64,000 nt of DNA from contig NZ_LGHL01000003.1 of NCBI RefSeq assembly GCF_001908205.1, forward strand, positions 1 through 64,000, read 5' to 3'. This document shows, piece by piece, positions 2,794 to 46,622 of the stretch. The notes below the pieces were generated by a model. It searched no databases, was not told the DNA's origin, and saw only the letters and a program-made list of their open reading frames with translations. Source of the stretch: Bradyrhizobium sp. NAS80.1 (GTDB lineage: Bacteria; Pseudomonadota; Alphaproteobacteria; Rhizobiales; Xanthobacteraceae). The position numbers and the translations under genes are program-made. Each line of letters starts with the position of its first letter. Positions within the stretch are counted from its first letter, which is position 1.

Positions 2794-2828
2794 GGCCTGC
2801 CGTCGGCTGCCTGAGCGGTATTCCCGCC

Positions 2829-2842: not shown

Positions 2843-2889
2843 GGGTCCCGGCGAAAGCGGGGCTATCACGATCAGCAAGGAGAATTCCG

Positions 2890-3729
2890 ATGCCCATCAA
2901 GGACGTCTTTCTGCCGCTTGTTGGCCCTCCGCGCGGGCCGGCCCTCGCTGCGGTTGAGAAATGCGTGGCTGTGGCCGCGGGCCTCGGCGCCAGGATCACC
3001 GCGTTCGCTCTGGAAGACGATGTTTTCGTGCGCCCGACAGTGGTGTTTCCGGCCGATCCGGAATCCGCCCAAGCTGCGGGCGCGCGCGAAGCGTGCGACA
3101 TGCAGCAACTCCTGAATGCCTTCGTCAATGCAGCCTCCCGCACAGGCATTCGCGCCCAAAGCCGCTCCGGCAAGGTGCCAGCCGACCAGATCGCTTCGAC
3201 CCTGGCCGAGCATGCGCGTTTCAGCGATCTCTCGCTGGTCCCCGTGAAGCCGCATGATAGTCGAACGGAGCATATCATCGAAACGTTCCTGTTCGAATCC
3301 GGCCGGCCGCTCCTGCTCTGCCCGGAACAGCATGTGGACGAGCTACGACCGGAATTTGAGAACGTCATGATCGCGTGGGACCACTCCGCGCGTGCGGCGC
3401 GGGCGGTGGGAGATGCGTTGCCGGTCCTTCAGGCGGCCGCCTCTGTTCGGGTGGTGACCGTGGCGGACGACAAGACCGACGCGATCGTGCAATCCAGAAC
3501 GGCACTCGTTGACCATCTCAGGGAACACGGTGTCTACGCCTCGTTCGAAACCGCGAAGGGCAGCGGCAGTTCGATCGGCAAGGTTCTCGGAAGCTGGGCG
3601 AACTCCCATGCCATCGATGCTCTCGTGATGGGAGCCTACCACCATTCGCGCCTGAACGAGACCGTTTGGGGCGGTGTGACAAAGACCGTCATTGGCGAGC
3701 CACCGTGCTGGGTTATGATCTCGCACTAG
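2890..3729 (+). CDS. Universal stress protein, tandem UspA domains
   Basis: A 279-residue protein with two UspA-like domains (about 1-150 and 155-279). The second keeps the nucleotide-binding signature: GSGSSIGKVL followed by ALVMGAYHHSRLNETVWGG, equivalent to the G-x2-G-x9-G-(S/T) loop. Tandem Usp proteins of this size are induced by stress, stationary phase or low oxygen. The ribosome site AAGGAG lies 7 bp before the ATG. Two FNR/FixK-type boxes lie upstream, and the acyl-CoA synthetase gene follows 55 bp later on the same strand, so the pair may be one anaerobically induced unit. Confidence 0.9.
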   Translation: MPIKDVFLPLVGPPRGPALAAVEKCVAVAAGLGARITAFALEDDVFVRPTVVFPADPESAQAAGAREACDMQQLLNAFVNAASRTGIRAQSRSGKVPADQIASTLAEHARFSDLSLVPVKPHDSRTEHIIETFLFESGRPLLLCPEQHVDELRPEFENVMIAWDHSARAARAVGDALPVLQAAASVRVVTVADDKTDAIVQSRTALVDHLREHGVYASFETAKGSGSSIGKVLGSWANSHAIDALVMGAYHHSRLNETVWGGVTKTVIGEPPCWVMISH

Positions 3730-3784
3730 CCAAGTTTCCGGCCTGACCTTAACCTTCGGAACCGCCACCGATCGGGCGCATTTC

Positions 3785-6478: not shown

Positions 6479-6486
6479 GCGCGGGG

Positions 6487-6975
6487 CTAGGAGCGCGCGT
6501 CAGCCGACGTTGCAGCGGCGGATTCCCTCGCCGACTTCCGCAGGCTCTTGATGATGATGGCGATCAGCGGCACCAGCACCGGCGCGACCGTGCTCAGCGG
6601 ATGATGCACCGCGCCGGACACCTGGGCCTGGAACGCCCGCGCCTCAAGCTGCAGGGCTTCGATGGATGTGCCGTGAATTTCATTGGCGAGCTTAAGGTCG
6701 CGACCCGAGGGAGGACGGCCAGCAATGACGAAGAGAACGCCCGCGATAGCGAAATTGACGGCGCCAAGGATGGCGGCCGCGGCAATTGCGCTCCAGATCT
6801 GCACGAGTGCGAAATAGGCCGAAAGCTCCAACATCAGGAGCCCGAATGCTGCGATCAGCGCCGCGAAGGCGCGAAGGCCCAGCCCGACCAGAAGATTGCG
6901 TAGCCTGATGTCCGCGATGATCCTGTCCGTGCGCCACAGCGCGCGCAGATGTTTGACTACATTTTCCGTATTCAC
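6487..6975 (-). CDS. Phage-holin-type (YqjE-like) membrane protein
   Basis: A 162-residue protein with two adjacent hydrophobic helices at about residues 30-85 (GLGLRAFAALIAAFGLLMLEL; WSAIAAAAILGAVNFAIAG), then an amphipathic helix and a basic Ser/Ala-rich tail. Size and layout fit the Phage_holin_3_6 / YqjE family of inner-membrane proteins usually encoded beside a DUF883 (YqjD/ElaB) protein. Here the upstream neighbour is exactly that, though frameshifted: its stop codon TAG is directly followed by the GTG start of this gene with no gap, so translation was probably coupled. Function beyond membrane association is unknown. Confidence 0.75.
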   Translation of the reverse strand: MNTENVVKHLRALWRTDRIIADIRLRNLLVGLGLRAFAALIAAFGLLMLELSAYFALVQIWSAIAAAAILGAVNFAIAGVLFVIAGRPPSGRDLKLANEIHGTSIEALQLEARAFQAQVSGAVHHPLSTVAPVLVPLIAIIIKSLRKSARESAAATSADARS

Positions 6976-7250
6976 CTAGTGCCTCCTCAGCATGAAGCCG
7001 ACGACCACGCCGAGCGCGAAGGCGGACGCAAGCGATGCAACCGGGCGCTCCGTGATGAGGCCCTGGAGCTGTTCCTGCTCGTCGCTGACGGTCTCGCCGA
7101 GTTCGGCAAGCGCTGCCCAGATCTGATCGGCCAGGCCTCGGCACGATCTTTCGAATTGTCGAACATCTCCTCGCCGGCGGTGCTCAGCAGACGCGTGACG
7201 TCGACCTTCAGCGCCCGCAGTTCTTCGCTCATCCTGTCGCTATCGAACAT
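6976..7250 (-). pseudogene. DUF883 (YqjD/ElaB-like) protein, frameshifted
   Basis: The frame starting at 7250 reads MFDSDRMSEELRALKVDV and continues to KDRAEA. It then goes out of frame at about 7130-7137, where GAGGCCTGG stands in place of an expected GAGGCCCTGG. In the adjacent frame the rest of a DUF883 protein is intact: ADQIWAALAELGETVSDEQ, then a C-terminal membrane anchor ending FALGVVVGFMLRRH and stop. One missing C in a CCC run explains everything, so this is either a recent frameshift or a base-calling error. The family is a small membrane-anchored, ribosome-associated helix protein. The YqjE-like partner follows immediately. Confidence 0.8.
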
Positions 7251-7307
7251 GGATTTGTTGTCTCCATTGAATCGAAGTGAACCTAAGACCTGCGGGAGCG
7301 CTCGCGC

Positions 7308-7321
7308 TTGACTTGCGTCAA
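7308..7321. promoter_or_regulatory. FNR/FixK-type box 3
   Basis: TTGACTTGCGTCAA, a perfect TTGA-N6-TCAA dyad in the divergent gap between the DUF883 gene and mlaE. It lies 58 bp from the DUF883 start and 106 bp from the chosen mlaE start. Confidence 0.55.
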
Positions 7322-7343
7322 GGGGCGGTGCGTGGTCCTGGTC

Positions 7344-7357
7344 TTGAGACAGGTCAA
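7344..7357. promoter_or_regulatory. FNR/FixK-type box 4
   Basis: TTGAGACAGGTCAA, another perfect dyad 36 bp after box 3 and 70 bp before the mlaE start. The paired boxes mirror the arrangement upstream of the universal stress protein gene. Confidence 0.55.
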
Positions 7358-7426
7358 ACCGATCGCCACATGCTGGCCTAGAAATACCGGCTGAATAGGG
7401 GCCAATTGTCCCGAAGAGGAGGAAGT

Positions 7427-8563
7427 GTGAACTCCGAACCGCTGTTGCTGGCGACGCCGTCCGGCGATGCGCTGAACCTGCGCCCGGAAGGGCCGTGGAC
7501 CGCAGCGAATGTGGCGACGCTCGAAACGCTGTCCCGATCGGTCGGGGCGGATGTCGATCGATCCAGATCCGTGACGCTGGACATGTCAGGCGTCGGCGCG
7601 CTCGACACGCTCGGCGCCTGGGTCCTGGAAAAGCTGACGCGCAGGGCCGCATCCTCCGGCAGATCGGCCGAACTCGTCGGTGTCGCCGATCATTTCAGCG
7701 GGCTGATGGACGAGGTGCGTCAGGTCAATCGCCATACGCCAGCGCCGGCGGCCGCGCCGAACCCGGTTCTGCTCTGGCTGAACGATCTCGGCAAGTCCAC
7801 GATCGGCGCGCGAGAAGACATCGCGGTCTTTCTTCAAATGCTCGGCGCACTGTTCACGGCCGTGATCGGCGTACTGCGTCGGCCACGATCGCTGCGGCTG
7901 ACGTCGCTGGTCTACCAGCTCTACCGGATCGGATGGCAGGCGATTCCCATCATCGTGCTGATCACCTTCCTGATCGGGGCGATCATTGCCCAGCAGGGCT
8001 TCTTCCATTTCCGCAGGTTCGGTGCCGAGTCCTACACCGTCGACATGGTTGGCATCCTGGTGCTGCGCGAGCTCGGGGTGCTGATCGTCGCGATCATGGT
8101 CGCCGGCCGCTCGGGAAGCGCCTACACGGCCGAGCTCGGGTCGATGAAGATGCGCGAGGAGATCGACGCGCTCTCGACTATGGGGCTCGACCCTGTCCAT
8201 GTCCTGATCCTGCCGCGCGTTGCGGCCCTGGTCATTGCGCTGCCGATCCTCGCCTTCATCGGATCGATTGCCGCACTCTATGGCGGCGGCCTGGTCGCGC
8301 AATTCTACGGGGATATGGGACCGGCGATTTACATTGCACGGCTGCATGAGGCCATATCCGTCACCCATTTCGAGGTCGGCATCCTGAAAGCACCGTTCAT
8401 GGCGCTGGTGATCGGGATCGTCGCCTGCAGCGAGGGACTGCGCGTGAAGGGTAGCGCCGAGTCGCTCGGACGGCAGACCACGACGTCGGTGGTCAAGTCG
8501 ATCTTCCTGGTGATCGTGCTCGACGGCCTGTTCGCGATCTTCTTTGCCTCGATCGGAATGTGA
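7427..8563 (+). CDS. mlaE: MlaE-family ABC transporter permease with N-terminal STAS domain
   Basis: Permease of an Mla-type phospholipid transport system. Residues 1-90 resemble a STAS domain (VTLDMSGVGALDTLGAWVLEKL). The remaining 280 residues are the multi-helix MlaE permease with the family hallmark AGRSGSAYTAELGSMKMREEIDALSTMGLDP. I chose the GTG at 7427 because a strong AGAGGAGGA ribosome site ends 3 bp before it; an in-frame TTG at 7406 lies upstream of that site. The next gene overlaps the stop codon. The system shuttles lipids between inner and outer membranes; the paired FNR/FixK boxes suggest oxygen-linked control. Confidence 0.92.
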   Translation: MNSEPLLLATPSGDALNLRPEGPWTAANVATLETLSRSVGADVDRSRSVTLDMSGVGALDTLGAWVLEKLTRRAASSGRSAELVGVADHFSGLMDEVRQVNRHTPAPAAAPNPVLLWLNDLGKSTIGAREDIAVFLQMLGALFTAVIGVLRRPRSLRLTSLVYQLYRIGWQAIPIIVLITFLIGAIIAQQGFFHFRRFGAESYTVDMVGILVLRELGVLIVAIMVAGRSGSAYTAELGSMKMREEIDALSTMGLDPVHVLILPRVAALVIALPILAFIGSIAALYGGGLVAQFYGDMGPAIYIARLHEAISVTHFEVGILKAPFMALVIGIVACSEGLRVKGSAESLGRQTTTSVVKSIFLVIVLDGLFAIFFASIGM

Positions 8564-28346: not shown

Positions 28347-28598
28347 TTGCGGGCCACGGCCCTTGAGGATTCGAGCGCGGAACTGTGCGCCGCGTTCTTG
28401 CGTGCGGCACTGGGCGTTGAGCCGACGGTGCGGCGCACCGACTACATCGCCTCGTGGCTTGAGATGCTGCGCGAGGACAATCGGGCGATTGCCCGCGCGG
28501 CAAGCCAAGCCAGCAAGGCGGCGGATTACATTGTCGGTTTTTTGACAGATCCCGCTGTCGGCATAGCAGGTGGGGATGGGGAGTGTGAGGCGGCTTGA
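28347..28598 (+). pseudogene. C-terminal fragment of an ArdC-type antirestriction/zincin protein
   Basis: About 60 residues (ALEDSSAELCAAFLRAALGV, VRRTDYIASWLEMLREDNRAI, ASKAADYIVGF) match the C-terminus of the ArdC-family protein at 41421-42323 in this same window (TVELLSAMICADLNL, AAYVASWLEVLRSDQRAI, SKAQEIADW). The N-terminal ssDNA-binding domain and HExxH site are missing. It is a remnant of the backbone's own ardC, which commonly precedes the Toprim gene in such elements. Confidence 0.75.
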
Positions 28599-34643: not shown

Positions 34644-35060
34644 ATGACCATGAACATGAACATGATGACTTTGTCCCAAAGCGAACAGCCTTTGTCGGGC
34701 GGTTTCCGCGTGGATGTATCGCGTGGCCAGCGGATCGGCCGCGTGTCGTCCGAGTGGTTTGCGCGACCGGACGACGAGCGTTACCTGAATTTGCCGGACC
34801 TCTATGAAGCGGTGCGAGGACGTGCCGAACGCGCGCAGGCACGGACGGTGGAAAGCCGGGCTATCCGGGTGGAGGCGAACTGCGAAAATTCCGAGCGGCT
34901 GGCCCTGACGGTGCCGGGACGTGACGAGCCGGTGGCGCCGACGCATTGGAGCTTTGGCCAGTTGAGTACGCTGGTTGGCGCGCCGACCTCCTACCTGCGG
35001 CAACTGCCTGCGGCACTATCGGCCATCAACCTGCAACACGGCTTGCTGTCACATCGCGCC
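34644..35060 (+). pseudogene. DUF932 gene, 5' half (split by a 10.8-kb insertion)
   Basis: The frame starts MTMNMNMMTLSQSEQPLSGG and gives the N-terminal part of a DUF932 (phage/plasmid-like) protein: HWSFGQLSTLVGAPTSYLRQL, then INLQHGLLSHRA, where it leaves the family at base 35060. The rest of the protein resumes at 45829 with ELVKTLETNNGRVELRAVTGP. Joining CGCGCC at 35055-35060 to base 45829 gives one continuous reading frame (…LLSHRA-ELVKTLE…). The leader at 34600-34620 holds a GCGCAGCGCTGCGC palindrome like the neighbouring gene leaders. Confidence 0.9.
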
Positions 35061-35094
35061 TTATCCTAACACTGTGATCCTGTCTCAGAATCAG
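35061..35094 (+). repeat. Left terminal inverted repeat of the trio element
   Basis: TTATC-CT-AACA, nine bases, then TGTCTCAG-A-ATCAG. It matches the reverse complement of 45791-45822 at 22 of the 23 to 25 conserved positions, with a 2-base spacer difference. Confidence 0.85.
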
Positions 35095-35108
35095 GCATGG
35101 AGCCGCGT

Positions 35109-35235
35109 CACCGCTGTTGCGGTGAAGCTCTTCAGACGTCCGAGTCAAGCGTTCCCGCAGCGAAGCGAGGACAACGCTTGACGCGGCGGCGCCACCACAA
35201 GCTATTCGAAGGGGTGCAGGCGAAGTCCTGCAACC
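35109..35235. other. Hairpin-rich left subterminal region
   Basis: Contains CACCGC-TGTT-GCGGTG (35109-35124), a perfect 10-bp inverted repeat GTCAAGCGTT / AACGCTTGAC (35144-35153, 35173-35182), and TGCAGG/CCTGCA arms around 35215-35235. It lies between the terminal repeat and the first recombinase. It may hold accessory binding sites or a structured leader. Confidence 0.5.
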
Positions 35236-35322
35236 CTGCCACGCGGCGAGCGGGAGAGCGCGGAGGGGGAACCCCTCGCATCCTAAACAAAAAGAGTCGC
35301 GCCGAAGGCGCTCCGCTTGGGT

Positions 35323-36753
35323 ATGTGCGTGCAGTTGTACTTTACGAACCTTGACGTGCTGTCGCGTCCGCTTCCGCTTTCCATTGATGGCCTTGCAGTG
35401 AGTACCGCGCCCGGTGCGCTCGACGTTGCCGAGCGCGCCGGGCTGATCGACGGCATGCCGTTCATCCTCATGGATGATGGAAGCTACGATCTCAATCTCA
35501 ATCGATTCTTCCGCGCCTGCCCAGGGATGGGCGCGCGCTCGCCGAACACCTAGCGGTCCTACGCGCGGGACATTCTGGTCTGGGCTCGCTTCCTTCGCGA
35601 GCGGCGCGGCGGCAAGACGGTCTGGCAAGCAGACCGCCATGACGTTCTGGCGTTCCATCGAGCACGGCGGCTATCTGCGGCTCCCTACCGCATCTCGGCA
35701 TCGAGCTGGAATCGGGGCATCGCGGCGCTCGACAAACTCTATCGGTGGGCCGTCGAAGAGGGGATCATGACGACCTCGCCCTTCAGCTACGGCGTGACCG
35801 CTTATAGGAGGGCGGGGACGCGCGCGTTGCTGGCGGCGACGGCGAACCGCTCGCGCGAACGTGCCGCGCGGCGGCACGATATGCGTTTCATCGATCTTGG
35901 CAGCTATTTGCTATTCCGCGACGTCGGCTTGCGCGGAAGGCTTCCGGACGGTTCGGAGGACCCGGCCTGGCGTGGCCGCAACGGCGAGCGCAATGCGTTG
36001 TTCGCGGAACTCCTGGTCACGACCGGTCTGCGGTTGTCCGAGGGCGGCAGCTTGCTGCTCGCCGATCTTCCGCGCAGGTCGGATTCCAGCATGCGCTCGC
36101 TCCCGTTCGACCTTCCCGGGGCGGTCGCCAAGGGCGGACGACCGCGCCGCATTCGCATCCCCCGCCGGGTCTTGAAGCTCGTCAGCGACTACATCGATCT
36201 TGAGCGAATGATCTCGGCAGCCCGGCGAGAGCCGACGGTGTCCAATCCGTTCTGGTTGACGTCGGATCGCGAGAAGGTCGTCGACGCGAAGGGCAAGCGG
36301 GTTCGCCTCGACCGGCTGACGCCGCGCGAGCGAGGCCGTGTGCTGACCGGCGCGCCCGGCAAGGCGCAGCATGCTCTGCTATGGCTGACGGAAGGCGGCG
36401 CACCCGTCCCGTCAGCAACCTGGGAAGCCGCGTTCCGCCGCGCCTGCGCGCGCTGCCACCGTTTCGGCATCGACGTCAACGTGACGCCGCACACGCTGCG
36501 GCACACCTTCGCCGTCAACATGCTCTCCATGCTGATCCGTGAGCAGATCGGGATCGTGTTCGATCCGCAGGATCGACATGGCGCGGCCTACCGTCGGATT
36601 CTGGGGGATCCGCTGCAGAAGCTCCAGCACCTGTTGGGCCACGCCAGCGTGACCAGCACTTACATCTATCTCGACAGTCTTGCCGAAGCGCAGGAACTGG
36701 TCGACGCGGCCGCCGATCGCTGGGCCGAAGATGCGGCCGGTAACGCGCAATGA
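35323..36753 (+). pseudogene. Tyrosine recombinase A of the trio, in-frame TAG
   Basis: The frame starts at ATG 35323 (MCVQLYFTNLDVLSRPLPL), meets a TAG at 35551-35553 after GMGARSPNT, and continues in the same frame (RSYARDILVWARFLRERRGG) to 36753. The full length would be 476 residues. Downstream the catalytic domain is complete: Arg in VTTGLRLSEGG, HTLRHTFAVNML, LLGHASVTSTYIYLD with the Tyr nucleophile. Only the core-binding domain is interrupted. Translation could restart at ATG 35767, which would give a catalytic domain only. The stop overlaps the next gene's start (ATGA). Confidence 0.85.
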
Positions 36754-38591
36754 CCGATCTGACAGCTGGACCGGTGCGGCGGCCGGGACGCCGCGCGCTG
36801 TTTCCTGAGGCATTGCCTGATCCCGAGGGCGAAGCCGCCGCTGCCATCGCCTCGCTCCGATTCACTGTCACCCTCGCGGATCGCAGCATCACGATCGATC
36901 TGACGATGCTGTCCGGCCGCAAGGCGTTGGCCCAAACGCTTGCGGGCGCGCTCTGGCGCGCCTGTCAGGTCGGCGGCCCCGTAGGCTCGATCTCAACCGC
37001 GGCGGCGTATGCCAGTGCGCTCAAGCTGTTCTGGCGGTATCTCGATTCCGTCAGCCCCAGTGTCACGCGCCTCTCAGACATGAGCGCGGCCTGCATCGAC
37101 GGATTCGATGCGTGGATGGAGGAGAGTGGGCTGCACCCCAATCACAGGCTTCACCGCATGAGCAAGGTGCTCAATCTATGCCGGCTCGCCGAGGCCGCCG
37201 AGCCGGGTTGTCTGCCGCCCGATGCCTCGAGGCGGCTGATGTACACGAGCGACCGACCGGGGGTGCGCGCCCGGCCACGCGATGCCTACGGCGATGATGT
37301 CGCCACGGCCGTGCGGAACGCCGCTCGCACCGATCTCACCACGCTGATCGGTCGCCTTGCCGAGACGGATCGCATTCCGACGCTCGAAGATGCCGATCGG
37401 AGCAAAGCTCTGCAAGTTGCGCACGAACGCGCAATGGCTGTAGTCGACGCCGAAGGCGTCATTGGTCACCGGCACCCTGTCTTCAAGCGGCTCTACACGC
37501 TTCGCCGCGAGAGCGGCTTGTCGAACGATCGCCTGATCCACGATCTGCACGGCCGCCGTCATCTGCTCGCCATCGATCTCCTGCCGCTGATGGTCTTGCT
37601 GTCGCTCGATACCGGGCTGGAGATCGAAGCGATTAAGGACTTGCGGTCGGATTGCCTGAAGAACCCTGCGGGCGGCTATGTCGAGATCGAGTATTGCAAG
37701 CGGCGGGCACGCGGTAACGAGTGGAAGCGGTTGCGCGTGCGTGATGGCGCTTCATCGACACCGGGCGGCCTGATCCGCAAGGTGCTGCAGTGGACCGCTC
37801 CGGCGCGAGGCCGGCTTGCCGCCTGCACGCTCTGGGCTCACTTCGCCTGGGGGCGGTTGACCCCGCGCGTCCTCGCCACGAAGGAACTTGTCGCCTCATG
37901 GACCGAGCGACATGGTATTCGCGATGAAGAGGGCAAGCCTCTCCGGCTCAACCTGACACGCCTGCGCAAGACGCACAAAGCGGCTTGGTATCGGCGAACC
38001 GGCGGTCAACTCGACCGCTTTGCGGTCGGCCACAGCGTGGCCGTTGCGGCCAATCACTACGCCGATATCCCCGCGCTTCGCCATATCCACGAAGCCACCA
38101 TCGCCGACGCCACAGGGGACGCGCTCGACGCCGCCCTGCATCCGTGCGTCCTCTCATCACAAGATGAGGCAGCCATTCGAGCCGATCCGGACGAGGCCAT
38201 CGGTCTGCCGGTTTCTGGGCGTGCGGCCGTCAACGCGCTGTTCAGCGGCGAACAGGATGTCTGGCTCGCCAGTTGCGGCGGTTTCTACAAGAGCCCGTTT
38301 GGCGACGAAGGGGATGCCTGTTCGTCGCCGTTCTGGGGCTGCCTCGAATGCAGCAACGCGGTGATCACCGCACGCAAGCTGCCCGCGCTCCTGTCGTTTC
38401 TGAGCTTTATCCGGGCGCAACGACAGTCGCTCAGCGAAGCCGACTGGATCACCAAGTTCGGCCGCATTCATGGGCGGATCGCCGATCAGATTTTGCCGCG
38501 GTTCAGCGCGGCCGAGATCGAACAGGCCGGCCAGCTCGCGGCATCGGACCCGACGCTTATTTACCTCCCGCCCGAAGCTGGAGCACCATGA
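36750..38591 (+). CDS. Tyrosine recombinase B of the trio
   Basis: A 613-residue recombinase. Core-binding region around AYASALKLFWRYLDSVSP; catalytic segments LSLDTGLEIEAIKDLRSD, then LTRLRKTHKAAWYRRTGGQLDRFAVGHSVAVAANHYADI (Arg, His and Tyr positions). The box-I Arg expected in TGLR is Glu here (TGLE), so it may not cut on its own. A C-terminal Cys-rich patch (WLASCGG, ACSSPFWGCLECSN) looks like a small zinc site. It overlaps A and C by 4 bp each. Size is close to Tn554 TnpB. Confidence 0.85.
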   Translation: MTDLTAGPVRRPGRRALFPEALPDPEGEAAAAIASLRFTVTLADRSITIDLTMLSGRKALAQTLAGALWRACQVGGPVGSISTAAAYASALKLFWRYLDSVSPSVTRLSDMSAACIDGFDAWMEESGLHPNHRLHRMSKVLNLCRLAEAAEPGCLPPDASRRLMYTSDRPGVRARPRDAYGDDVATAVRNAARTDLTTLIGRLAETDRIPTLEDADRSKALQVAHERAMAVVDAEGVIGHRHPVFKRLYTLRRESGLSNDRLIHDLHGRRHLLAIDLLPLMVLLSLDTGLEIEAIKDLRSDCLKNPAGGYVEIEYCKRRARGNEWKRLRVRDGASSTPGGLIRKVLQWTAPARGRLAACTLWAHFAWGRLTPRVLATKELVASWTERHGIRDEEGKPLRLNLTRLRKTHKAAWYRRTGGQLDRFAVGHSVAVAANHYADIPALRHIHEATIADATGDALDAALHPCVLSSQDEAAIRADPDEAIGLPVSGRAAVNALFSGEQDVWLASCGGFYKSPFGDEGDACSSPFWGCLECSNAVITARKLPALLSFLSFIRAQRQSLSEADWITKFGRIHGRIADQILPRFSAAEIEQAGQLAASDPTLIYLPPEAGAP

Positions 38592-40756
38592 TGCCCGCCG
38601 TTAACAACGCCTTGCTGCAGCCCGCATCGCTGCCATCGGCCATCTATGGCGACGACGAGCCTGTGCTTGCCGGCATTCCGGTCAGGGAGGATGCCAACCG
38701 AGCGCAATTCCCGCGCTTTGGCGATGACCACTGGGATTTGGGAGCCGCCATCTTCCGGGTGAACGCCCGCTACAGCAATTACCGGCTCAATTTCGCCCGC
38801 ATCGTCGATCCTGTGACCCGGCGGCTCGCTAAGGAGTATGTGCTCGCCCGCCTGCGCATCCATGTGCCGGGATACCGGGCACCGTGTGGTGTCGCTTGGG
38901 CGATCCGGCTGCTGCGGTACATCCAGCATTTTGCAGCGTTCCTCACCGCACGTATTGGCGCCGTCGATCTGCACCGGATCGATCAGCCTCTCCTCGACTC
39001 TTATCTGGCGCACGCCCGCGACGGCGGCCGGCGAACGCCGCACGAGACAGTGAAGTATGTCGAGGTGCCGATCGACCTGCATCATCTGTCGCCATGGCTG
39101 ACGGGCCGCGGCATCGGCTTTCTGCCGTGGCGTGGGCGTGCGGCTCACCATGTTGCCAAGCGGCCGCCGGCGCCGGCCGAGAATGCCACGCCGCGCATTC
39201 CCGAACCGATCATCGGCGCCATGCTGCGCTGGTCGCTCAAATACGTCGAGGTCTTTGCGCCGGATATCCTCGCCGCGCGAGTGGAACTCGATGCGCTCGA
39301 AGCCCGTTGCGAGCAACTAATGGCGGAGGACGCGCGCGCCGGACGAGCGGTCGCCGAGACCTATCGTGCGCGCATGATCAAATGGCTCGAGGCGCGCCGG
39401 ATGGTCGGCAGAGGCGTGCCGATCTGGGAGCGGGCGCCCAATGTCGCCCGCCGCATCGACCTGCAAACGGGCGCAGAGACACCACCTTACAATCTTCACC
39501 TGATGCGCCTGCACGTCGGCGCTCGCGAGAGCGGCCGTGTCAGCCAGTCCGAACCGACGGCACGGCTGATTGATCAGGCGGCGGCCGAGCTCGGGACCGA
39601 GGTCGGCGGCCTCGATACGCCGATCTCGATCGACCCGGACACCGGTATGCCGTGGCGCCAACGCTTCGACGGCCTGAGCCTCGCCCGGGAGGAACGCATG
39701 CTGCAGGGCGCCTGTTACGTCATCTGCGCCTACCTCACCGGCATGCGCGACAGCGAGGTGCAGGCCATGCAGCCGGGCTGTGTGTCGGCGGAGCGCAGCG
39801 CCGACGGCTTGGTCGAACGCTACCGGGTGCGCAGCACCGTCTACAAGCGCCAGGGGGCGCGCGGCGTGACGGCCGACTGGATCACGATCGAACCGGTCGC
39901 CCGCGCCGTTGCGGTGATGGAGGTTCTCTCGGCGCGCAATCGCCGGGAGAAGGGATTATCATCTCTCTGGGTGGCGCTGAAGGACTGGCCCTGGAGTGCC
40001 GATCATCTCGGCATCGGCGCGACGCCGACCCTAAACTTGTTCCGCGAAGGTCTCGATGCGCGCTCTGGCGACGAACCGGTCATTCCGCGGATCGCGGATG
40101 AACCCTGGAAGTTCACGACCCGGCAGCTTCGCCGGACCATCGCATGGTACATCGCCAACCGCCCGTTCGGCACCGTTGCGGGCAAGATTCAAGACAAGCA
40201 TGCCTCGGTCGCCATGTTCGAGGGGTATGCGGGTTCGGCCCGAGGCGATTTTCGCTTGGCGGTCGAACGTGAACGCGCCCTCGGGCAGCTCGACGACATC
40301 ATCGCCCATTATGAGGCGTTCCGTCGCCATGAGGGTCCCGCCGGACCGGCCGCCGCGCGACTGCGACGCGAGTTCGCCCGTGTGCAGGATGAGCTTGGTG
40401 AGCTGCCCGGCCGGATTGTAGATCGCAAACGATTGCGCACCATGCTCGCCCATCTCGGCCGAACCTTGCATGTCGGCTTTCTCAACGACTGCCTTTTCGA
40501 CGCCGCGACCGCGCTGTGCCTCGCAGCCTCGCCCGATCCTGAACGCACCGCACCAGCCTTGTCGCGATGCAGTCCGGATCGTTGCCCCAACGCTTGCCTG
40601 ACCGCGCGCCATCTTGAGCCATGGCAAGCCTCGATCGCGGAGGGCGAAGCTTTGCTCAGCGACGGTCGCCTGTCGTCGCTGCAACGCGCAGCCATCGCGC
40701 AGGACAACGAGCGCAAGCGCCGGCTGATTGCACCCCTTGTAGATGGTGGCGCATGA
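38588..40756 (+). CDS. Tyrosine recombinase C of the trio
   Basis: A 722-residue recombinase starting MMPAVNNALLQPASLPSA (ATG 38588 overlaps the TGA of B). The catalytic part has LTGMRDSEVQAMQPGCV (box-I Arg present), then FTTRQLRRTIAWYIANRPF and KIQDKHASVAMFEGYAGSA, the Arg, His and Tyr region in a degenerate form. A Cys-rich tail (CSPDRCPNACLTARHLEPW) is a likely metal-binding patch. The frame is open upstream but only the 38588 start is coupled to B. Confidence 0.85.
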   Translation: MMPAVNNALLQPASLPSAIYGDDEPVLAGIPVREDANRAQFPRFGDDHWDLGAAIFRVNARYSNYRLNFARIVDPVTRRLAKEYVLARLRIHVPGYRAPCGVAWAIRLLRYIQHFAAFLTARIGAVDLHRIDQPLLDSYLAHARDGGRRTPHETVKYVEVPIDLHHLSPWLTGRGIGFLPWRGRAAHHVAKRPPAPAENATPRIPEPIIGAMLRWSLKYVEVFAPDILAARVELDALEARCEQLMAEDARAGRAVAETYRARMIKWLEARRMVGRGVPIWERAPNVARRIDLQTGAETPPYNLHLMRLHVGARESGRVSQSEPTARLIDQAAAELGTEVGGLDTPISIDPDTGMPWRQRFDGLSLAREERMLQGACYVICAYLTGMRDSEVQAMQPGCVSAERSADGLVERYRVRSTVYKRQGARGVTADWITIEPVARAVAVMEVLSARNRREKGLSSLWVALKDWPWSADHLGIGATPTLNLFREGLDARSGDEPVIPRIADEPWKFTTRQLRRTIAWYIANRPFGTVAGKIQDKHASVAMFEGYAGSARGDFRLAVERERALGQLDDIIAHYEAFRRHEGPAGPAAARLRREFARVQDELGELPGRIVDRKRLRTMLAHLGRTLHVGFLNDCLFDAATALCLAASPDPERTAPALSRCSPDRCPNACLTARHLEPWQASIAEGEALLSDGRLSSLQRAAIAQDNERKRRLIAPLVDGGA

Positions 40757-41196
40757 CCGCACGAACGGGTTCGAAGAGCGAGGCGGCGTTGCGGGCGGCG
40801 ATGGCACGATTGCTCGACGGTCGGCCCGAGCGCACCGACGGCGCGCTCACCGTCGCCAACCTGGCGCGCGAGGCAGGTGTCAGCCGGGCTACCGCGAACC
40901 GCGCCGCGGATCTTCTCGCCGAGTTTCGTGTCGCCGAAGCCCGCCAGCGCCGATCGTCTCCCCAGACCCTGAAGCAGCGCATCCGCACCCTCGAAGCCGA
41001 ACTCAGAGCCGTGCGCGGCGCCGAGATGGCCGAGTTACGTACGCGCAACCGCACGCTCGCCCAGCATATCCAGATCTTGACGTTGCAAGTCGCCGAACGG
41101 GATGCGGTGATCGCGCGCTTGCAGGAAGAGCTCGCCCAATCGCGTGAGGCCAACGTCATTCCGCTGCGGCGCTCATCTCGCGACGGCGCAGGCTGA
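40753..41196 (+). CDS. Small HTH/coiled-coil partner of the trio (DUF6262/TnpC-like)
   Basis: A 147-residue protein. An N-terminal helix-turn-helix (LTVANLAREAGVSRATANRAADLL, about residues 32-55) is followed by a long heptad-like coiled coil (LKQRIRTLEAELRAV...LAQHIQILTLQVAERDAVIARLQEEL). Size, position and layout fit the DUF6262/TnpC-like proteins that end such recombinase operons. It starts in an ATGA overlap with recombinase C. It probably sets orientation or helps synapsis, by analogy with Tn554 TnpC. Confidence 0.75.
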   Translation: MTARTGSKSEAALRAAMARLLDGRPERTDGALTVANLAREAGVSRATANRAADLLAEFRVAEARQRRSSPQTLKQRIRTLEAELRAVRGAEMAELRTRNRTLAQHIQILTLQVAERDAVIARLQEELAQSREANVIPLRRSSRDGAG

Positions 41197-41382
41197 GAGC
41201 CGCGCAGCATCCCATCGCAGTCTGATCCCGCAGCGGCCGCTCGCATGGTCATCGTCTCCTGTGCTCGCCCGTCGAGGCAGGGGCTCGGTTGTGGCAGACG
41301 CTGCCGACCCGTCAACCCTGTTCCGCACCAGCGACCGAGAACAGGGTGTGACGGGCCGGCCCGCCGCGTCTGCCCCTGATGC

Positions 41383-41406
41383 CTCGCCCTCGACGGAGAG
41401 GGCGAG
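41383..41406 (+). promoter_or_regulatory. Leader hairpin before the ArdC gene
   Basis: Perfect 9-bp stem CTCGCCCTC / GAGGGCGAG with a 6-base loop, 14 bp before the ArdC ATG and just before its GGAG ribosome site. Its position matches the leader hairpins of DUF2493 and DUF736. Confidence 0.5.
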
Positions 41407-41420
41407 CACAGGAGACAGAC

Positions 41421-42323
41421 ATGACCAGGGATCGCAACAGCACCGCCCAAGCCAGCAAGGATATCTACGAGCGCGTCACCAACCAGATCATCGCCGCCAT
41501 CGAGGCCGGCGCTGGCGAGTACCGGATGCCTTGGCACCACGACGGATCGTCCATCACCACGCCCGTCAATGTCGCCTCACGCAAGGCTTATCGCGGCGTC
41601 AACGTCATCGCGCTCTGGGCCGCGGCGCAGGCGAGCGCATATCCGAGCAGCATCTGGGGCACCTATCGCCAATGGCACGAGCTTGGCGCTCAGGTGCGCA
41701 AGGGCGAGCGTGGCCACTTGGTGGTGTTCTGGAAGCAGACCGATCGCGACCGCGACGTCGATCGTCAGGACGGCGATCAGGATAGTGATGAACCGGCCTG
41801 CCGCATGTTTGCCCGCGGCTAAGTCGTCTTCAATTGTGCCCAGGTCGACGGCTACACGCCACCCGAGCTGCCGGCGTTGCCGGAGACCGAACGCATCGCG
41901 CATGCCGAACGCTTCTGCGCCGCCCTTAGCATCGATATCCGGCATGGCGGATCGCAGGCCTGCTACATCCCATCCAGGGACTACGTGGAGATGCCGGCGT
42001 TCGCGAGCTTCCGCGACGCGATCGCTTATTACGCCGTCTTGCTCCACGAGTGTGGACACGCCTCCGGCGCCAAGCATCGCCTCGATCGCGATCTCACCGG
42101 ACGGTTCGGCTCGGCTGCCTATGCCATGGAGGAATGCACCGTCGAGTTGCTCAGCGCCATGATCTGCGCCGACCTCAATCTCAGCGTCGAACCGCGGCCC
42201 GATCACGCCGCCTATGTCGCGTCCTGGCTCGAGGTGCTCCGCTCCGACCAGCGCGCCATTTTCACAGCCGCCAGCAAGGCACAAGAGATCGCCGACTGGA
42301 TGCATGCCCGGCAGCCGGCGTAA
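41421..42323 (+). pseudogene. ardC: ArdC-type antirestriction/zincin protein, in-frame TAA
   Basis: The frame runs MTRDRNSTAQASKDIYERVT, ssDNA-binding domain (SRKAYRGVNVIALW, GTYRQWHELGAQVRKGERG), to CRMFARG. It then has TAA at 41820-41822 and continues in the same frame with VVFNCAQVDGYTPPELP. A Tyr codon (TAC/TAT to TAA) would explain it. The C-terminal metallopeptidase-like domain has HECGH in LLHECGHASGAKHRL and the third-ligand Glu in YAMEECTVELL. ArdC proteins protect incoming ssDNA from restriction. It may be a dead gene, or the two halves may be made separately. Confidence 0.85.
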
Positions 42324-42471
42324 GCCGGTTGCGCTATTTGTCGCGCGTTCAGATGCTCGGCTCGTTGTTTCCCGCGCACCGTCCGAGTCAGAACCTGCAT
42401 CAATGGGAGCTGCACGAAGAGAACCGACACTGTCGGCTCGGACGGCGTTATTGTGCCGCTGCGCTCTTGAG

Positions 42472-43335
42472 CTACCTGTTCAAGAACGGAATCGCGGTCT
42501 CCGCCACCGCGTCTGGCAGCTCCTCGTGCACCGCCAGCTTCCCTTTTGCGAGCCGTTCGGACCGAACGTTCGGAAGGTCGGCAAGCGCTTCCATCTCGGC
42601 GCGAGACTTCGGTGGAGTCTCGTTCCCATAGACGACGAGGATCGGCACGTTCGCGTGGCGGGCGAGATCGAGGAAGGCGCCACGGCTGTCTATCCGATCG
42701 AGGCCGCCGGTCACGAAGCGCACCGAGCCGTGCCGGGCGCCTGGCGCGCGGGTGACAGCGAGCTTCTCGGTCAGGCGGTCCCCCGTCAGCCAGCCTGGAT
42801 CGCTGTAGACGTGCTCGCGTGCCATCTTCCTGATCACGATGCGGCTGACGTTGAGCCGGTAGAGCAATGGCCCGACGACGGGATGATCGACCGCCGCGCG
42901 CACACGCGCGAACCAAGCGCGCGTCCCACCCATCATGGTCGGCAAAGGTCCCCGCCATGTCGGCGCGATCAGAACAAGCCGCTCGATCGTGCCGGGGTGG
43001 TAGACTGCCTGATAGAGCGCATAAGTCGCGGCATGGCCGGCCGCGATCACCGCATGGGGCGGCGAGACGATCTCGCTCAGGAACCAGTTGAGGAAGGCCG
43101 AGAGGATATCTGGCGACCAGTCGTCCCGTGGGCGCGGACGATCGCCGAAGCTCGGCCAGTCGACGGTTGCGACACGGAACTGCGATTGGAGCCTGTCGAA
43201 GAGCGGGCGCATTTCTCCCCGCGTCGAGATCGAGCTCAAGGCCGGCAGAAGTACCACCGAGCGCCCGCTGCCGGCTTCATCCATGCCGAGTGCGATTTCT
43301 CCGCGCTCCCATCGGCAGCGAATCGTTCGCTCCAT
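42472..43335 (-). CDS. Alpha/beta-hydrolase fold protein lacking the nucleophile
   Basis: A 287-residue alpha/beta-hydrolase. The nucleophile elbow reads A-G-H-A-A-T (residues 99-104), with Ala102 where Ser, Asp or Cys is expected, so ordinary esterase chemistry looks impossible. The fold is otherwise intact: VVLLPALSSISTRGEM oxyanion loop, VATVDWPSFGDRPRP, FLDLARHANVPILVVYGNETPP, and C-terminal GKLAVHEELP carrying the His. It lies 8 bp downstream of the P-type ATPase on the same strand and probably belongs to the metal operon. Role unknown. Confidence 0.85.
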   Translation of the reverse strand: MERTIRCRWERGEIALGMDEAGSGRSVVLLPALSSISTRGEMRPLFDRLQSQFRVATVDWPSFGDRPRPRDDWSPDILSAFLNWFLSEIVSPPHAVIAAGHAATYALYQAVYHPGTIERLVLIAPTWRGPLPTMMGGTRAWFARVRAAVDHPVVGPLLYRLNVSRIVIRKMAREHVYSDPGWLTGDRLTEKLAVTRAPGARHGSVRFVTGGLDRIDSRGAFLDLARHANVPILVVYGNETPPKSRAEMEALADLPNVRSERLAKGKLAVHEELPDAVAETAIPFLNR

Positions 43336-43343
43336 CGCGCTGC

Positions 43344-45353
43344 TCAGGCTGCCTTGGCCTCTGGCTCGAGGTCTGGCGGCGCTTGCACCGTCTTCTCCGG
43401 CGCCGGTAGCAGCCGTGCCGAGTTGAGGATGAACACCAGTTCGGACACGACATGGATCGCCGCGGCGAGCAGCGGGTTCAGGAACCCGAAGGCGGCAAGC
43501 ACGATGCCGAGCGTGTCGACCCCGATTGTGCCGGCAAAGTTCTGCCAGATGATGCCGCGCGTGCGGCGAGCGACGGCGAGCGTTTCGACGAAGCGTTCGA
43601 GGTCGTTGCCGAGCAGCACCACATCGGCGCTTTCTTGCGCCACATCCGTGCCGGAGCCCATGGCAACGCCGACATTGGCTTGAGCCAGCGCCGGCGCGTC
43701 GTTGATGCCGTCGCCGACCATGGCGACGAAGTGCTTCTGCGCCACCAGCGCCTCGACACGCTTCAGCTTGTCCTCGGGTAGAAGCTCCGCCTCGATTTCC
43801 TTGATGCCGAGCGCAGCGCCCACAACCGTCGCCACGCGCAGCGTGTCACCCGTCAGCAGGACCGTCCGGATGCCCATGCGCTGCAAGGACGCGACGGCCT
43901 CTCTTGCCTCGGGCCGGACCGTGTCCGCCACGACGATGCCGCCGAGCAGAGCGCCGTCTCGGGCAACAAAAACCTGCGTGCCCGCGCCGGTCTCATCGTC
44001 GGATGAGACTGGCACCTTGATGCCATTGTCCGCCATCCAGGCCTGATTGCCCACCAGGATAGTGGCCTCGCCAAGCTTCGCCGTGATTCCGCGTCCAGGC
44101 GTGTAGCCGAAGCTCGTGGGCTCCGCGATCTCGCGTCCTTGGCGGCGGGCATAGGCGAGGATCGCCTTGCCGAGCGGGTGCTCGGAGCGCAACTCGGCCG
44201 TAGCAGCAGCATCGAGCAGCTCATCCACCGTTGTCCCAGTGTTCGGCACCACGCGCTGCACCTCGGGGCGGCCAAAGGTCAGCGTGCCGGTCTTGTCGAG
44301 CACCACCGTGTCGACGCGGCCCAAGGTCTCCAGATGCACACCGCCCTTGACGATGGCACCGAGCCGGGCCGAACGGCCGATGCCGCCGAGGATGGCAAGC
44401 GGCGTGCCGGCGGCGATACCGCAGGCGCCGGCGACGATGATGACCGAGATCGTCGAATAGATGTCGCGCGTGATCAAGAAGGTCAGCGCGGCCGCGCCCA
44501 GCGCGAAGTAAACGAGATAGCCGGCCAGGCGGTCGGCGAGGCGCTGGACGGGCGCGCGCGACTTTTCGGCGCGCTCGACCGCCTCGATGATCTTGCCGTA
44601 GCTCGTATCGCGGCCGATCCGCTCGGCGGCAATTTCGAGCGCCCCGGACTGATTGATCGAGCCGGCAAAGACATGCGCGCCGGCAACCTTCTCGACCGGC
44701 ATGGATTCTCCGGTAATGCGCGACTCATCGACGAAGGAATGGCCCGACAGCACGGCGCCGTCGACGGGAATGCGCCCGCCGGGCGCAACCAGGATGGCGT
44801 CGCCGACCGACAGTTCCTCCGCCGAGACGGAGTGAATCGCACCGGCCCGGCGCACCGACACCTCACGCGGCAAGAACTCCAGAAGATCGCGGATCGCCTT
44901 GCGGCCGCGACCGACTGTCAGGCCCTCCAGCACCTCAGCGACCAGCACGAACAGCGTGATGACGAGCGCCGTGAACAACTCGCCGATGGCCGCCGCCGCA
45001 ACGATCGCGATCGTCATCGACAGCTCCATCGTCATGCGGCGCTCGACGATGTTCTCGAATGCCTCCTTGAGGATCGGCCAGCCGCCGATCAGGAGACCGA
45101 CGATGCCGATGAGGCTGACCGTCGCAAACGGCTCCCACACCCTGAACCACACCGCGGCTGACGCGGCCGCGACGAGGGCGATCCGCACAGCCTCCGGCCA
45201 TTCGAACGGATGGTCGTGATCATGCCCGTGCTCATGATCGTGGTCGTCATGATCATGATCATAATGGAGGTGAGAATGCGCTTCCGGCGCCACGGTGCGC
45301 GCTTCCGCGTCGTCTACTAGTGTCAGGCGATGAGAGGTGTTCTGGACGGCCAT
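43344..45353 (-). CDS. Heavy-metal P1B-type ATPase with His-rich N-terminus
   Basis: A 669-residue P-type ATPase: His/Asp-rich N-terminal tail (residues 26-48, HSHLHYDHDHDD...), TGES at 214-217, phosphorylated Asp353 in DKTGTLT, GDGINDAPAL hinge, and the C-terminal membrane helices. The transmembrane-4 metal motif is not CPC: it reads GACGIAAGTP with a single Cys311, so ion choice may differ from ZntA/CopA types. The His tail and the RcnR-like regulator suggest nickel, cobalt or zinc efflux. It lies between the regulator (17 bp) and the hydrolase (8 bp). Confidence 0.9.
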   Translation of the reverse strand: MAVQNTSHRLTLVDDAEARTVAPEAHSHLHYDHDHDDHDHEHGHDHDHPFEWPEAVRIALVAAASAAVWFRVWEPFATVSLIGIVGLLIGGWPILKEAFENIVERRMTMELSMTIAIVAAAAIGELFTALVITLFVLVAEVLEGLTVGRGRKAIRDLLEFLPREVSVRRAGAIHSVSAEELSVGDAILVAPGGRIPVDGAVLSGHSFVDESRITGESMPVEKVAGAHVFAGSINQSGALEIAAERIGRDTSYGKIIEAVERAEKSRAPVQRLADRLAGYLVYFALGAAALTFLITRDIYSTISVIIVAGACGIAAGTPLAILGGIGRSARLGAIVKGGVHLETLGRVDTVVLDKTGTLTFGRPEVQRVVPNTGTTVDELLDAAATAELRSEHPLGKAILAYARRQGREIAEPTSFGYTPGRGITAKLGEATILVGNQAWMADNGIKVPVSSDDETGAGTQVFVARDGALLGGIVVADTVRPEAREAVASLQRMGIRTVLLTGDTLRVATVVGAALGIKEIEAELLPEDKLKRVEALVAQKHFVAMVGDGINDAPALAQANVGVAMGSGTDVAQESADVVLLGNDLERFVETLAVARRTRGIIWQNFAGTIGVDTLGIVLAAFGFLNPLLAAAIHVVSELVFILNSARLLPAPEKTVQAPPDLEPEAKAA

Positions 45354-45370
45354 GATGGCGAGCTCCGGTC

Positions 45371-45646
45371 CTATTTGAGATAGGCGCGCACGACGTCGAT
45401 CAGCTCGGCGGCGCCTTCGTTGCGTTGCTTCTGCTCGAGGTCGGCATCGGCCACATGCAGTTGAATGTGGTCCTCGACCACCTCGGCCATGAGCCCGTTG
45501 ATCGCGCCCCGCACCCCGGCGATGAGCTGCAGCACGTCGGCGCAGCCCCTTTCTTCCTCAAGCGCCCGTTCGACCGCCTCCATCTGGCCGCGGATGCGGC
45601 GCACGCGGTTGAGCAGCTTCTGTTTCTCACGGGTCGTATGCGACAT
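45371..45646 (-). CDS. RcnR/FrmR-type metal-sensing repressor (CsoR family)
   Basis: A 91-residue all-helical DUF156 repressor: RVRRIRGQMEAVERALEEERGCADVLQLIAGVRGAING. The ligand set is His3, Cys35, His60 and His64, which exactly matches the Ni/Co ligand positions of E. coli RcnR (established for that protein); FrmR shares most of them. Metal binding should release it from the operator at 45675-45688 and turn on the ATPase. It is the first gene of the three-gene minus-strand cassette. Confidence 0.9.
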   Translation of the reverse strand: MSHTTREKQKLLNRVRRIRGQMEAVERALEEERGCADVLQLIAGVRGAINGLMAEVVEDHIQLHVADADLEQKQRNEGAAELIDVVRAYLK

Positions 45647-45670
45647 GCGGCCTCCTCATATTGCCGCATA

Positions 45671-45690
45671 TATAATACCCCCCTATACTA
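45671..45690 (-). promoter_or_regulatory. CsoR/RcnR-type operator and promoter
   Basis: Core ATACCCCCCTATAC at 45675-45688, a dyad with a six-C/G tract, 29 bp upstream of the repressor start. G-tract dyads of this form are the known operators of RcnR/FrmR-type repressors. An AT-rich TATTATATA on the minus strand overlaps it and may be the -10. Confidence 0.75.
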
Positions 45691-45790
45691 TTCAAGATGG
45701 CGCAAAGAACTCCCTTTCAAGCCACTCATCCCTAGCCATTGTGTCTCACGCCGCTGGTCGCCCTGAAGACCCCAGAACGTATGAGGTCCG

Positions 45791-45822
45791 CTGATACTGA
45801 GACAGCTTGACTGTTCAGATAA
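45791..45822 (-). repeat. Right terminal inverted repeat of the trio element
   Basis: Reverse complement reads TTATC-TG-AACA, seven bases, TGTCTCAG-T-ATCAG. It mirrors 35061-35094 and abuts the second CGCGCC copy. Confidence 0.85.
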
Positions 45823-45828
45823 CGCGCC

Positions 45829-46622
45829 GAGCTCGTGAAAACATTGGAGACCAATAACGGGCGCGTTGAGCTTCGCGCTGTCACCGGGCCGGACTATGGC
45901 CGCATTTGGGACCATGAACTGGTTGCGGCGGTCATGAAGATCGCAGGCAATGGCACGGGTGACACGCGGTGGAAGGTCCCGGGCGTGATGGATTGGTCAA
46001 CCATGACCCACAATCCGTTTGTAGACGTGACCAAGGACACCACGACGCTTTACGCCAGCGATCGCGATGTATTTCTGTTTCTGGTCGACGATACCAATCC
46101 GATCGAGGCGGGCCGCTTGGCGGACGGGTCGCCGGAAATTTGTATTTTCGGGGATTTTACTGCTGGAATAGTGAAGTCGGCAGCAAAACGCTGGGTATTG
46201 CAAGCTTCTACCTTCGCGCCGTGTGTATGAACCGCAATCTGTGGGGCGTGGAGAATTTCGAGGAGATCACTATCCGGCATTCGAAATTCGCCGCACAACG
46301 TTTCGCGCATGAAGCCGCCCCCGCGCTGACGCGCTTTGCCAATTCCTCGCCCGCGCCATTCGTCGCCGGCATCAAGGCCGCACGGGAGCGGATCGTTGCC
46401 CGCACCGACGACGACCGGGAGACCTTCCTGCGCAAGAGCGGCTTTTCCAAATCTGAGACATCAAAAATCATCGAAACCGTCTTGGGCGAAGAATATCGCA
46501 AGCCGGAGAGCATCTTTGATTTCGTGCAGGGCATCACCGCGTTTGCTCGCGGTAAGGCTCACCAGGATACGAGGCTTGAATTAGAAGGCAAAGCCAAGCG
46601 CTTGATGGAGCGTGCAATCTGA
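45829..46622 (+). pseudogene. DUF932 gene, 3' half (also frameshifted)
   Basis: Resumes the DUF932 protein cut at 35060: ELVKTLETNNGRVELRAVTGP, DYGRIWDHELV, VPGVMDWSTMTHNPFVDV. At about 46137 the frame breaks (GGAAATTTG; one base missing relative to a GAAGATTTG-type reading) and continues in another frame with YFRGFYCWNSEVGSKTLGI, NRNLWGVENFEEI, ending LMERAI at 46622. So this half carries its own lesion beside the insertion. DUF932 proteins are large backbone proteins of unknown function. Confidence 0.85.

Follow-up and report, generated by a model that had tools for sequence, protein, structure and literature searches.

A 64,000-nucleotide stretch of Bradyrhizobium sp. NAS80.1 (contig NZ_LGHL01000003.1, positions 1 to 64,000, forward strand; hereafter, the window) contains a 10,762-bp element at positions 35061-45822 that interrupts a DUF932 gene and is bordered on each side by the hexamer CGCGCC. 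The left junction (35060/35061) reads ACAT-CGCGCC/TTATCC and the right junction (45822/45823) reads GATAA/CGCGCC-GAGCTC, with the slash marking the boundary of the element. Its termini form imperfect inverted repeats that have in common an outer TTATC and an inner CTGTCTCAG. The element encodes a four-gene recombinase operon similar to ginABCD at its left end, followed by ardC and by cargo that includes a metal pump (Table 1). The right end is short and AT-richer, with 49% GC over the last 170 bp versus 66% for ginABCD (one copy measured). The surrounding genes are of chromosomal type up to approximately 26 kb of the window and of plasmid or integrative and conjugative element (ICE) type thereafter, the latter including a DUF736-like gene, the DUF932 gene, a DUF3363 relaxase gene and a gene for a TraG-type coupling protein. 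A truncated ArdC C-terminal piece was also noticed at 28350-28598, near the switch between the two types of genes. No second copy of the element was found in the same genome (9.23 Mb, 532 contigs), in which the left end and protein 3 of the operon each matched once.

Table 1. Features of the element and of its target gene (coordinates in the window)
Feature	Coordinates	Strand	Basis
DUF932 target gene, N-terminal part, cut after ...LLSHRA	34650..35060	+	intact relatives
Left hexamer CGCGCC, target codons R-A	35055..35060	.	junction reading
Left terminal repeat TTATCCTAACACTGTGATCCTGTCTCAG	35061..35088	+	same end in 27 other close loci
Structured leader preceding ginA, conserved and common to distant trio elements	35132..35320	+	comparison, predicted fold
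ginA-like tyrosine recombinase 1	35329..36753	+	in-frame TAG at 35551; Phage_integrase match in the open part, 35767-36753
ginB-like protein 2, 613 amino acids (aa)	36750..38591	+	tyrosine-recombinase fold predicted
ginC-like recombinase 3	38588..40756	+	Arg392, His543, Tyr552 invariant in 27 aligned sequences
ginD/TnpC-like small protein, 147 aa	40753..41196	+	weak helix-turn-helix and coiled-coil matches
Carried ardC, single-stranded DNA (ssDNA)-binding and zincin domains	41421..42323	+	interrupted by TAA at 41820
Alpha/beta hydrolase (cargo)	42472..43335	-	domain match
Heavy-metal P-type ATPase (cargo)	43344..45353	-	Cd-family model above cut-off
Metal/formaldehyde-sensing repressor family (cargo)	45371..45646	-	FrmR/RcnR models below cut-off; Pfam family above
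Right terminal repeat	45797..45822	-	comparison of ends
Right hexamer CGCGCC, read as the footprint of the previous site	45823..45828	.	junction comparison
DUF932 gene, C-terminal part, frameshifted near 46.1-46.2 kb	45829..46622	+	alignment to uncut relatives

The initial annotation of this DNA had proposed that both ends of the insertion were known to the base and that joining the two gene halves would restore the reading frame, and uncut relatives confirmed the junctions. When a single hexamer was kept between both flanks, translation indeed ran through as ...LLSHRA-ELVKTLE..., and the script-joined halves aligned with four uncut DUF932 loci at 73-75% identity over 1,119-1,147 columns with 4-12 gaps. 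The predicted empty site was also found by searching with each flank (40 matches listed each, of 301 and 306 records). Among the matches listed, the two flank matches overlapped by exactly 6 bp in 13/13 plasmids matched by both flanks and in which the N-terminal match reached the junction, indicating that the empty site holds one hexamer. The name DUF932 was taken from the annotations of plasmid relatives; Pfam gave no match for the two halves in the window or for two intact relatives.

The four operon genes are coupled through three ATGA overlaps and keep the same order in relatives. Read from its GTG start, ginA contains an in-frame stop codon, as does ardC (Table 1), and relatives free of the interruptions in ginA, ardC and DUF932 exist. 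Proteins 2 and 3 matched no family in Pfam or NCBIfam. The best solved structures retrieved by Foldseek with their AlphaFold models (mean predicted local distance difference test scores of 79 and 74, respectively) were nevertheless tyrosine recombinases (Cre/Tre, Tn1549 Int and XerH), with weak scores (best E of 0.0011 and 0.012, in the same order) and low template modelling (TM) scores. Within these weak scores, the predicted folds support the earlier claim that three tyrosine recombinases and a TnpC-like protein occur together in one mobile element. Protein 3 keeps its Arg, His and Tyr in 27/27 aligned sequences (Table 1; numbering starts at 38573). Protein 2 has a Glu where the first catalytic Arg would be expected (27/27), and its Arg404, His428 and Tyr437 are invariant columns; the catalytic roles of these residues are assumed from the general recombinase motif. 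ArdC domains PF08401 (ArdcN) and PF18818 (zincin metallopeptidase) were detected in both open pieces of the carried gene and in an intact relative. In genomic islands with three integrases (GInts), all four operon genes are required for excision and integration, according to the portion of the published study available (PMC5385486). Since recombinase 1 is interrupted, the window copy is thus probably immobile and fixed in place. The description of a complete transposon therefore holds as regards an element lying between known ends, but the copy itself is damaged by the stops in ginA and ardC.

A scan of 84,980 species genomes provided 187 confirmed loci, the best 80 of which were taken, and protein 3 of 28 of these 80 was 83-92% identical to that of the window. 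A plasmid search further recovered a remnant in B. betae and two plasmids of Bosea sp. AS-1, in which the operon and ArdC are conserved at 81% DNA identity but mercury genes take the place of the metal pump. Together with the window, these make up 32 close loci (28 scan loci, two Bosea loci and the remnant). As far as their contigs reach, the 30 other close loci and the remnant have the same ends, target codons and gene order; this recurrence argues that the insertion is not a chance arrangement. The comparison of loci established a common plan for the family, in which a ginABCD-like operon on the left is followed by ardC and then by swappable metal cargo, all between imperfect inverted ends. 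ArdC was constant behind the operon in 32/32 close loci, six of which are cut by contig ends and one of which, the remnant, has lost most of the operon. Mercury genes were present in 22 of the 26 close loci whose cargo region was covered, three copies in Mesorhizobium sophorae are bare (7.4 kb) with ArdC yet no other cargo, and the metal pump was specific to the window among the close loci. At the DNA level, alignment of the element to Bosea was restricted to 35057-42314 and to the right end, starting at 45797, so that the cargo between 42314 and 45797 was exchanged.

These relatives bear on several earlier proposals. The terminal repeats were found with other cargo in other genomes, as anticipated. 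The view that ArdC belonged to a novel cargo combination had to be abandoned, as it is a constant companion of the operon. The element is not unique, since the 30 other close loci and the remnant share its plan, and the metal pump alone sets the window copy apart. Metal-efflux cargo is not an unusual trait either, given the mercury genes of most covered loci and the copper and mercury genes reported for GInts in the accessible part of their description (PMC5385486). A profile of protein 3 matched 3/299 genomes phylum-wide, including the window's own and two weak matches, and 18/296 genomes within the family of the host, 11 of them strongly (E below 1e-180).

More divergent relatives were also observed. 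A 48% relative in Chelativorans multitrophicus (locus L065, 6594-14766) also interrupts DUF932, but at another site and in reverse orientation, with ArdC on the minus strand. A group of Rhodobacterales relatives (L045-L055, including the short contigs L047, L048 and L054, together with the short contig L044) has elements of mostly ~6.2 kb, in which no ArdC was found; where flanks were readable, the gene that they cut at RHHA/EGIF matched neither ArdC nor DUF932. Finally, a single element fills almost exactly the whole length of each of three contigs (L023, L034 and L058), a pattern that a collapsed repeat or a free circle would produce.

Of the 32 close loci, 25 had a readable left flank and 21 a readable right flank, and 28 were readable on at least one side. 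In these 28 loci, the target was always either DUF932 (SHRA/ELV) or ArdC (EEL[VI]A/E), each entered at one fixed codon, which demonstrates site specificity by comparison of loci. The ArdC site corresponds to a motif of the zincin domain, EEL[VI]AE, present in 27/28 background ArdCs with a readable motif (30 loci had been obtained from 34 matching genomes). ArdC left junctions viewed directly in 15 close loci and in 17 wider relatives (protein 3 at 45-92% identity) all had V-A or I-A directly before TTATC. The hexamers on the two sides of the element proved to be polar. On the left, the hexamer was of the native codon class in 25/25 cases, with nine R-A and one R-G in DUF932 and 15 V-A or I-A in ArdC. 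On the right, it was of the native class in 13/21 cases and of the other gene's class in 8/21, namely, L019, L021, L033 and L040 in DUF932 and L004, L037, L041 and L043 in ArdC. This asymmetry (0/25 versus 8/21) was significant (Fisher p=0.0008; 0.0009 after near-duplicates were dropped). At L040 (Mesorhizobium sophorae contig8, 981-8388), the ArdC gene lies on the left and DUF932 on the right, as if two copies had recombined and the replicon had been rearranged; without this locus, foreign right hexamers amounted to 7/20 (p=0.0017).

Because 13 of the 18 close loci readable on both sides have unequal hexamers, CGCGCC is best read as the 6-bp core of a site-specific exchange rather than as a target duplication. 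By analogy with Tn554, GInts and strand-biased circularizing integrative elements (SEs), the recombinases would form a circle by exchanging strands across this core. The circle would carry off the hexamer from the left of the old site; upon entry, the target's own hexamer would stay on the left and the imported hexamer would end up on the right. Such a polarity, in which the donor's left hexamer becomes the right hexamer at the new site, is described for SEs in the available part of the report (PMC10214605). If this rule holds, elements would shuttle between DUF932 and ArdC genes. The left hexamer of one Bosea sp. AS-1 locus (L002, NZ_CP022370) is identical to the right hexamer of the other (L003, NZ_CP022371), both being ATCGCG, and the element probably moved from the former plasmid to the latter. 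The window is one of the five loci with equal hexamers, which fits a previous residence in a DUF932 gene without being proof of it.

To characterize the carried ArdC, its relationships were compared with those of target and background ArdCs on a tree deduplicated from 115 to 78 rows. Carried ArdCs formed one clade (23/78 rows and 1 change, with full support of 100/100 and recovery in 100% of bootstrap trees), pointing to a single origin, and target ArdCs were scattered among ordinary background ArdCs (17 changes). The 33 ArdC left flanks had been chosen for matching to the last query residue, so that their count is no test of the site, and the 26 target halves exceeding 180 aa were kept. In Mantel tests on deduplicated sets, distances between carried ArdCs tracked those of GinC (protein 3; r=0.81, p=0.0005, n=28), and distances between target ArdCs did not (r=0.04, p=0.36, n=11). 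A recent capture of ArdC from the target gene was ruled out, since the carried copies form one clade apart from the targets. The site codons of the carried copies have mostly been lost. Among 38 columns at least 97% identical in the 30 background ArdCs, the most changed in 59 carried copies (near-copies included) were L580, the codon just before the hexamer, kept in 5%, and A582, the second codon of the hexamer, kept in 38%. The next most altered of these columns, A643, was kept in 51% and the HExxH residues in 98-100%. Within the carried clade, the site codons vary (ECTV, ECVV, ECCV, EATA, EACA and EAIA).

Carriage of ArdC was next compared with the target entered along the GinC tree, which comprised 41 rows (40 representatives under 95% identity and L009 added by hand). 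Labels for target and carriage were set by hand, and "other" designated flanks with no ArdC or DUF932 match. ArdC was carried by 19/20 elements entering ArdC, 7/7 entering DUF932 and 0/6 entering another gene. The difference between ArdC/DUF932 targets (26/27) and other targets (0/6) gave p=6e-6 with L044 left aside, as this locus lacks a readable flank and was placed under "other" from its kinship; including it gave 0/7 and p=1.5e-6, neither test being corrected for kinship. L094 was left unlabelled, and L034, L068, L070, L073, L077 and L086 had no known target. The other-target state required 3 changes on the tree, with ArdC absent each time.

Taken together, these results lead us to propose that the window probably holds a decayed copy of an alphaproteobacterial family of site-specific transposons that shuttles between DUF932 and ArdC genes, and in which the carried ArdC would replace the broken gene while itself resisting insertion. 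The family breaks the ArdC gene of its conjugative vehicle and would thus keep one dedicated ArdC lineage; as the site codons of this copy are mostly changed, the stand-in should be a poor target. It would keep anti-restriction working in the recipient and the vehicle thereby transmissible. ArdC of plasmid R388 acts in the recipient against HsdRMS and is required when the plasmid passes from E. coli to P. putida KT2440, as stated in the accessible part of its description (PMC7213743). There is also a precedent in Tn552-II, which carries a target-gene-like gene, tgl, that according to its authors may rescue the broken target (PMC12486829, available in part).

Several observations weigh against this proposal. 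The same R388 study reports that protease activity is dispensable for antirestriction (PMC7213743, in the part available), so that an ArdC cut at EELVA may retain function and need no stand-in; this possible residual function is the main weakness of the compensation idea. DUF932, the other broken gene, is not carried. In Hyphomicrobium zavarzinii (L062-L064), elements enter ArdC, and metal genes, with no carried ArdC, were found in them; L070, L073 and L086 also are without ArdC, their targets not being assigned. Absence of ArdC moreover needs 7 changes on the GinC tree and is thus not tied to target switches alone. Resistance of the carried copies may be incomplete, as the right hexamers TGCGCC (L085 and L096) and ACGGCC (L091) encode C-A and T-A, which are codons of the carried type. 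The carried ArdC of L067 and L084 has kept EELVAEL as well as an att-like DNA sequence, and that of L093 comes close (EELTAEL). Divergence is not confined to the insertion site either, given that T501, which lies outside it and is found in 77% of background ArdCs, is fully replaced in carried copies. As for the hexamer rule, the left hexamer of L021 encodes R-G instead of R-A, and the right hexamer of L040 may reflect rearrangement, because its flanks belong to two different genes. Separately, the right junctions of L085, L096 and L091 are such that a past entry into a carried ArdC is possible.

ArdC could instead be an ordinary beneficial passenger, unconnected with the broken gene, that protects element and vehicle against restriction when they enter a new cell, its site codons having been altered by lineage drift. 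This is possible but rather unlikely. The known role of ArdC in recipients (PMC7213743, available in part) would suffice for it, insertions in DUF932 carry ArdC too, and, as carried ArdCs form one old clade, their odd residues could be shared by descent. However, the site codons show many non-target states rather than one inherited state, change among the 38 near-invariant columns concentrates on them, and ArdC is missing from three distinct regions of the GinC tree whose elements enter other targets. On a bolder and doubtful reading, the carried ArdC would be dedicated to transposition: as a Spartan-like protease that binds ssDNA, it would strip covalently bound recombinase from the nicked strand and enable copy-out. 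With a similarly small chance of being correct, elements sparing ArdC would borrow the intact copy of the plasmid, and those breaking it would bring their own, preferably one unrecognised by their own recombinase. ArdC was likened to the crosslink protease Spartan by its crystallographers (PMC7213743), and Idola et al. state that a DNA-protein crosslink step should occur in SE movement, with no enzyme named in the part of the article available (PMC10214605).

A single insertion opens onto a family with a readable travel record, as an element's right hexamer indicates whether it came from a DUF932 or an ArdC gene of a plasmid. The transposon harms its vehicle by entering a conserved motif, and it appears to make up for this through one co-inherited copy in which the insertion site is mostly lost. 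The vehicles are conjugative plasmids and ICEs, in which anti-restriction affects host range. ArdC as a target or constant passenger of such elements was not found in the listed titles and beginnings of abstracts of open-licence articles in PubMed Central, the lists being capped, which does not prove its absence from print.

The element also shares a leader with distant recombinase trios. The stretch separating the left end from ginA contains a 185-bp block with 85-91% identity to the leaders of other trio elements. In the three of these elements that were compared (L005, L010 and L012), the recombinases are only 23-30% identical to those of the window where alignable, some not significantly. 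In the predicted fold of the leader, 99.2% of cells were paired, versus 38-54% when the fold was slid. Compensating changes were seen at 4 pairs, a number reached by 2/500 shuffles; further pair types were not more numerous than in shuffles, and the single-sequence z was only -2.1. Searching with a covariance model yielded 41 strong matches (≥194 bits) in 40/93 sources, 18 building sources included, and below these a single borderline match of 20 bits. This all-or-none presence across loci suggests that the leader is a module exchanged between elements. A known Rfam RNA was ruled out, with no Rfam match at the gathering threshold or at E<=1. A group of trio elements (L005, L006, L010, L012, L013 and L014) was also seen with a different end (TTAGGTT...); these are mostly cargo-less and lie in other plasmid backbone genes, identified by eye from flanks and annotation as ParB-like, DUF736 and DUF4326 genes.

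The initial annotation had taken the insertion for a recombinase in trio (RIT)/Tn554-like element with metal-efflux cargo and an ArdC gene; chance acquisition of both by a RIT/Tn554 transposon now appears very improbable. Known systems were compared here by their published descriptions, each available in part. RIT elements do have three overlapping recombinase genes, inverted ends and alphaproteobacterial plasmids as hosts (PMC3414803), and cargo-less trio elements share the leader of the window. Tn554-related elements are likewise site-specific, bring the donor att in on the right, encode TnpC (PMC12486829) and leave a 6-bp footprint (PMC10214605). Nevertheless, RITs measure ~3.5 kb and encode three proteins each with a possible catalytic motif, and their accessible description mentions neither a fourth gene nor cargo (PMC3414803), whereas the operon here spans 5.9 kb and its protein 2 is without the first Arg. 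Tn554-related elements encode two recombinases (TnpA and TnpB) with TnpC, as opposed to three recombinase-like proteins here, and reside in Gram-positive hosts (PMC12486829). The tgl gene of Tn552-II retains an att copy, unlike most carried ArdCs (PMC12486829). ArdC is moreover constant in the family rather than picked up, and gene content argues against a plain RIT as well as a plain Tn554 element. Least credible of all, and rejected, is a 6-bp target-site duplication left by staggered transposase cuts, which would suit the identical hexamers of the window and of four other close loci among the 18 readable on both sides but not the unequal hexamers of the 13 others, the restriction of other-gene classes to the right, or the lack of any DDE transposase family match among the scanned proteins of the element.

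The element thus belongs to the general trio/SE/GInt/Tn554 kind, with membership in none of GInt, SE, RIT or Tn554 established. It resembles GInts in its left-end operon of four genes, three for integrase-like proteins and one for a small protein of helix-loop-helix or coiled-coil type (PMC5385486, PMC10214605), in the cargo directly behind it, which includes metal genes as do GInts, in the short AT-richer right end, and in the 6-nt core with imperfect direct repeats at hybrid attL/attR, seen here by comparison of loci. It differs from them in that protein 3 of GInts is without the catalytic motif, or its first Arg, whereas in the present family Arg, His and Tyr are retained in protein 3 and it is protein 2 that departs at the first Arg. 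A constant ArdC or ArdC/DUF932 targets are not mentioned in the accessible parts of the GInt reports (PMC5385486, PMC10214605). As for hosts, alphaproteobacterial homologues of GInts were reported by Bardaji et al. (PMC5385486), and Idola et al. place ginC-ginD blocks not at all in Alphaproteobacteria (PMC10214605). SEs, in contrast to the present family, were detected in Gammaproteobacteria only, their Tfp is without the whole RHRY motif, of which protein 2 here appears to miss only the first Arg, and a constant ArdC is not mentioned in the available text (PMC10214605). The likeness to SEs nonetheless extends to the order of the operon (catalytic, not fully catalytic, catalytic, small protein), to the imperfect inverted ends, of 13-19 bp in SEs, and to the native hexamer on the left with a footprint on the right (PMC10214605), which is the polarity displayed by the close loci here.

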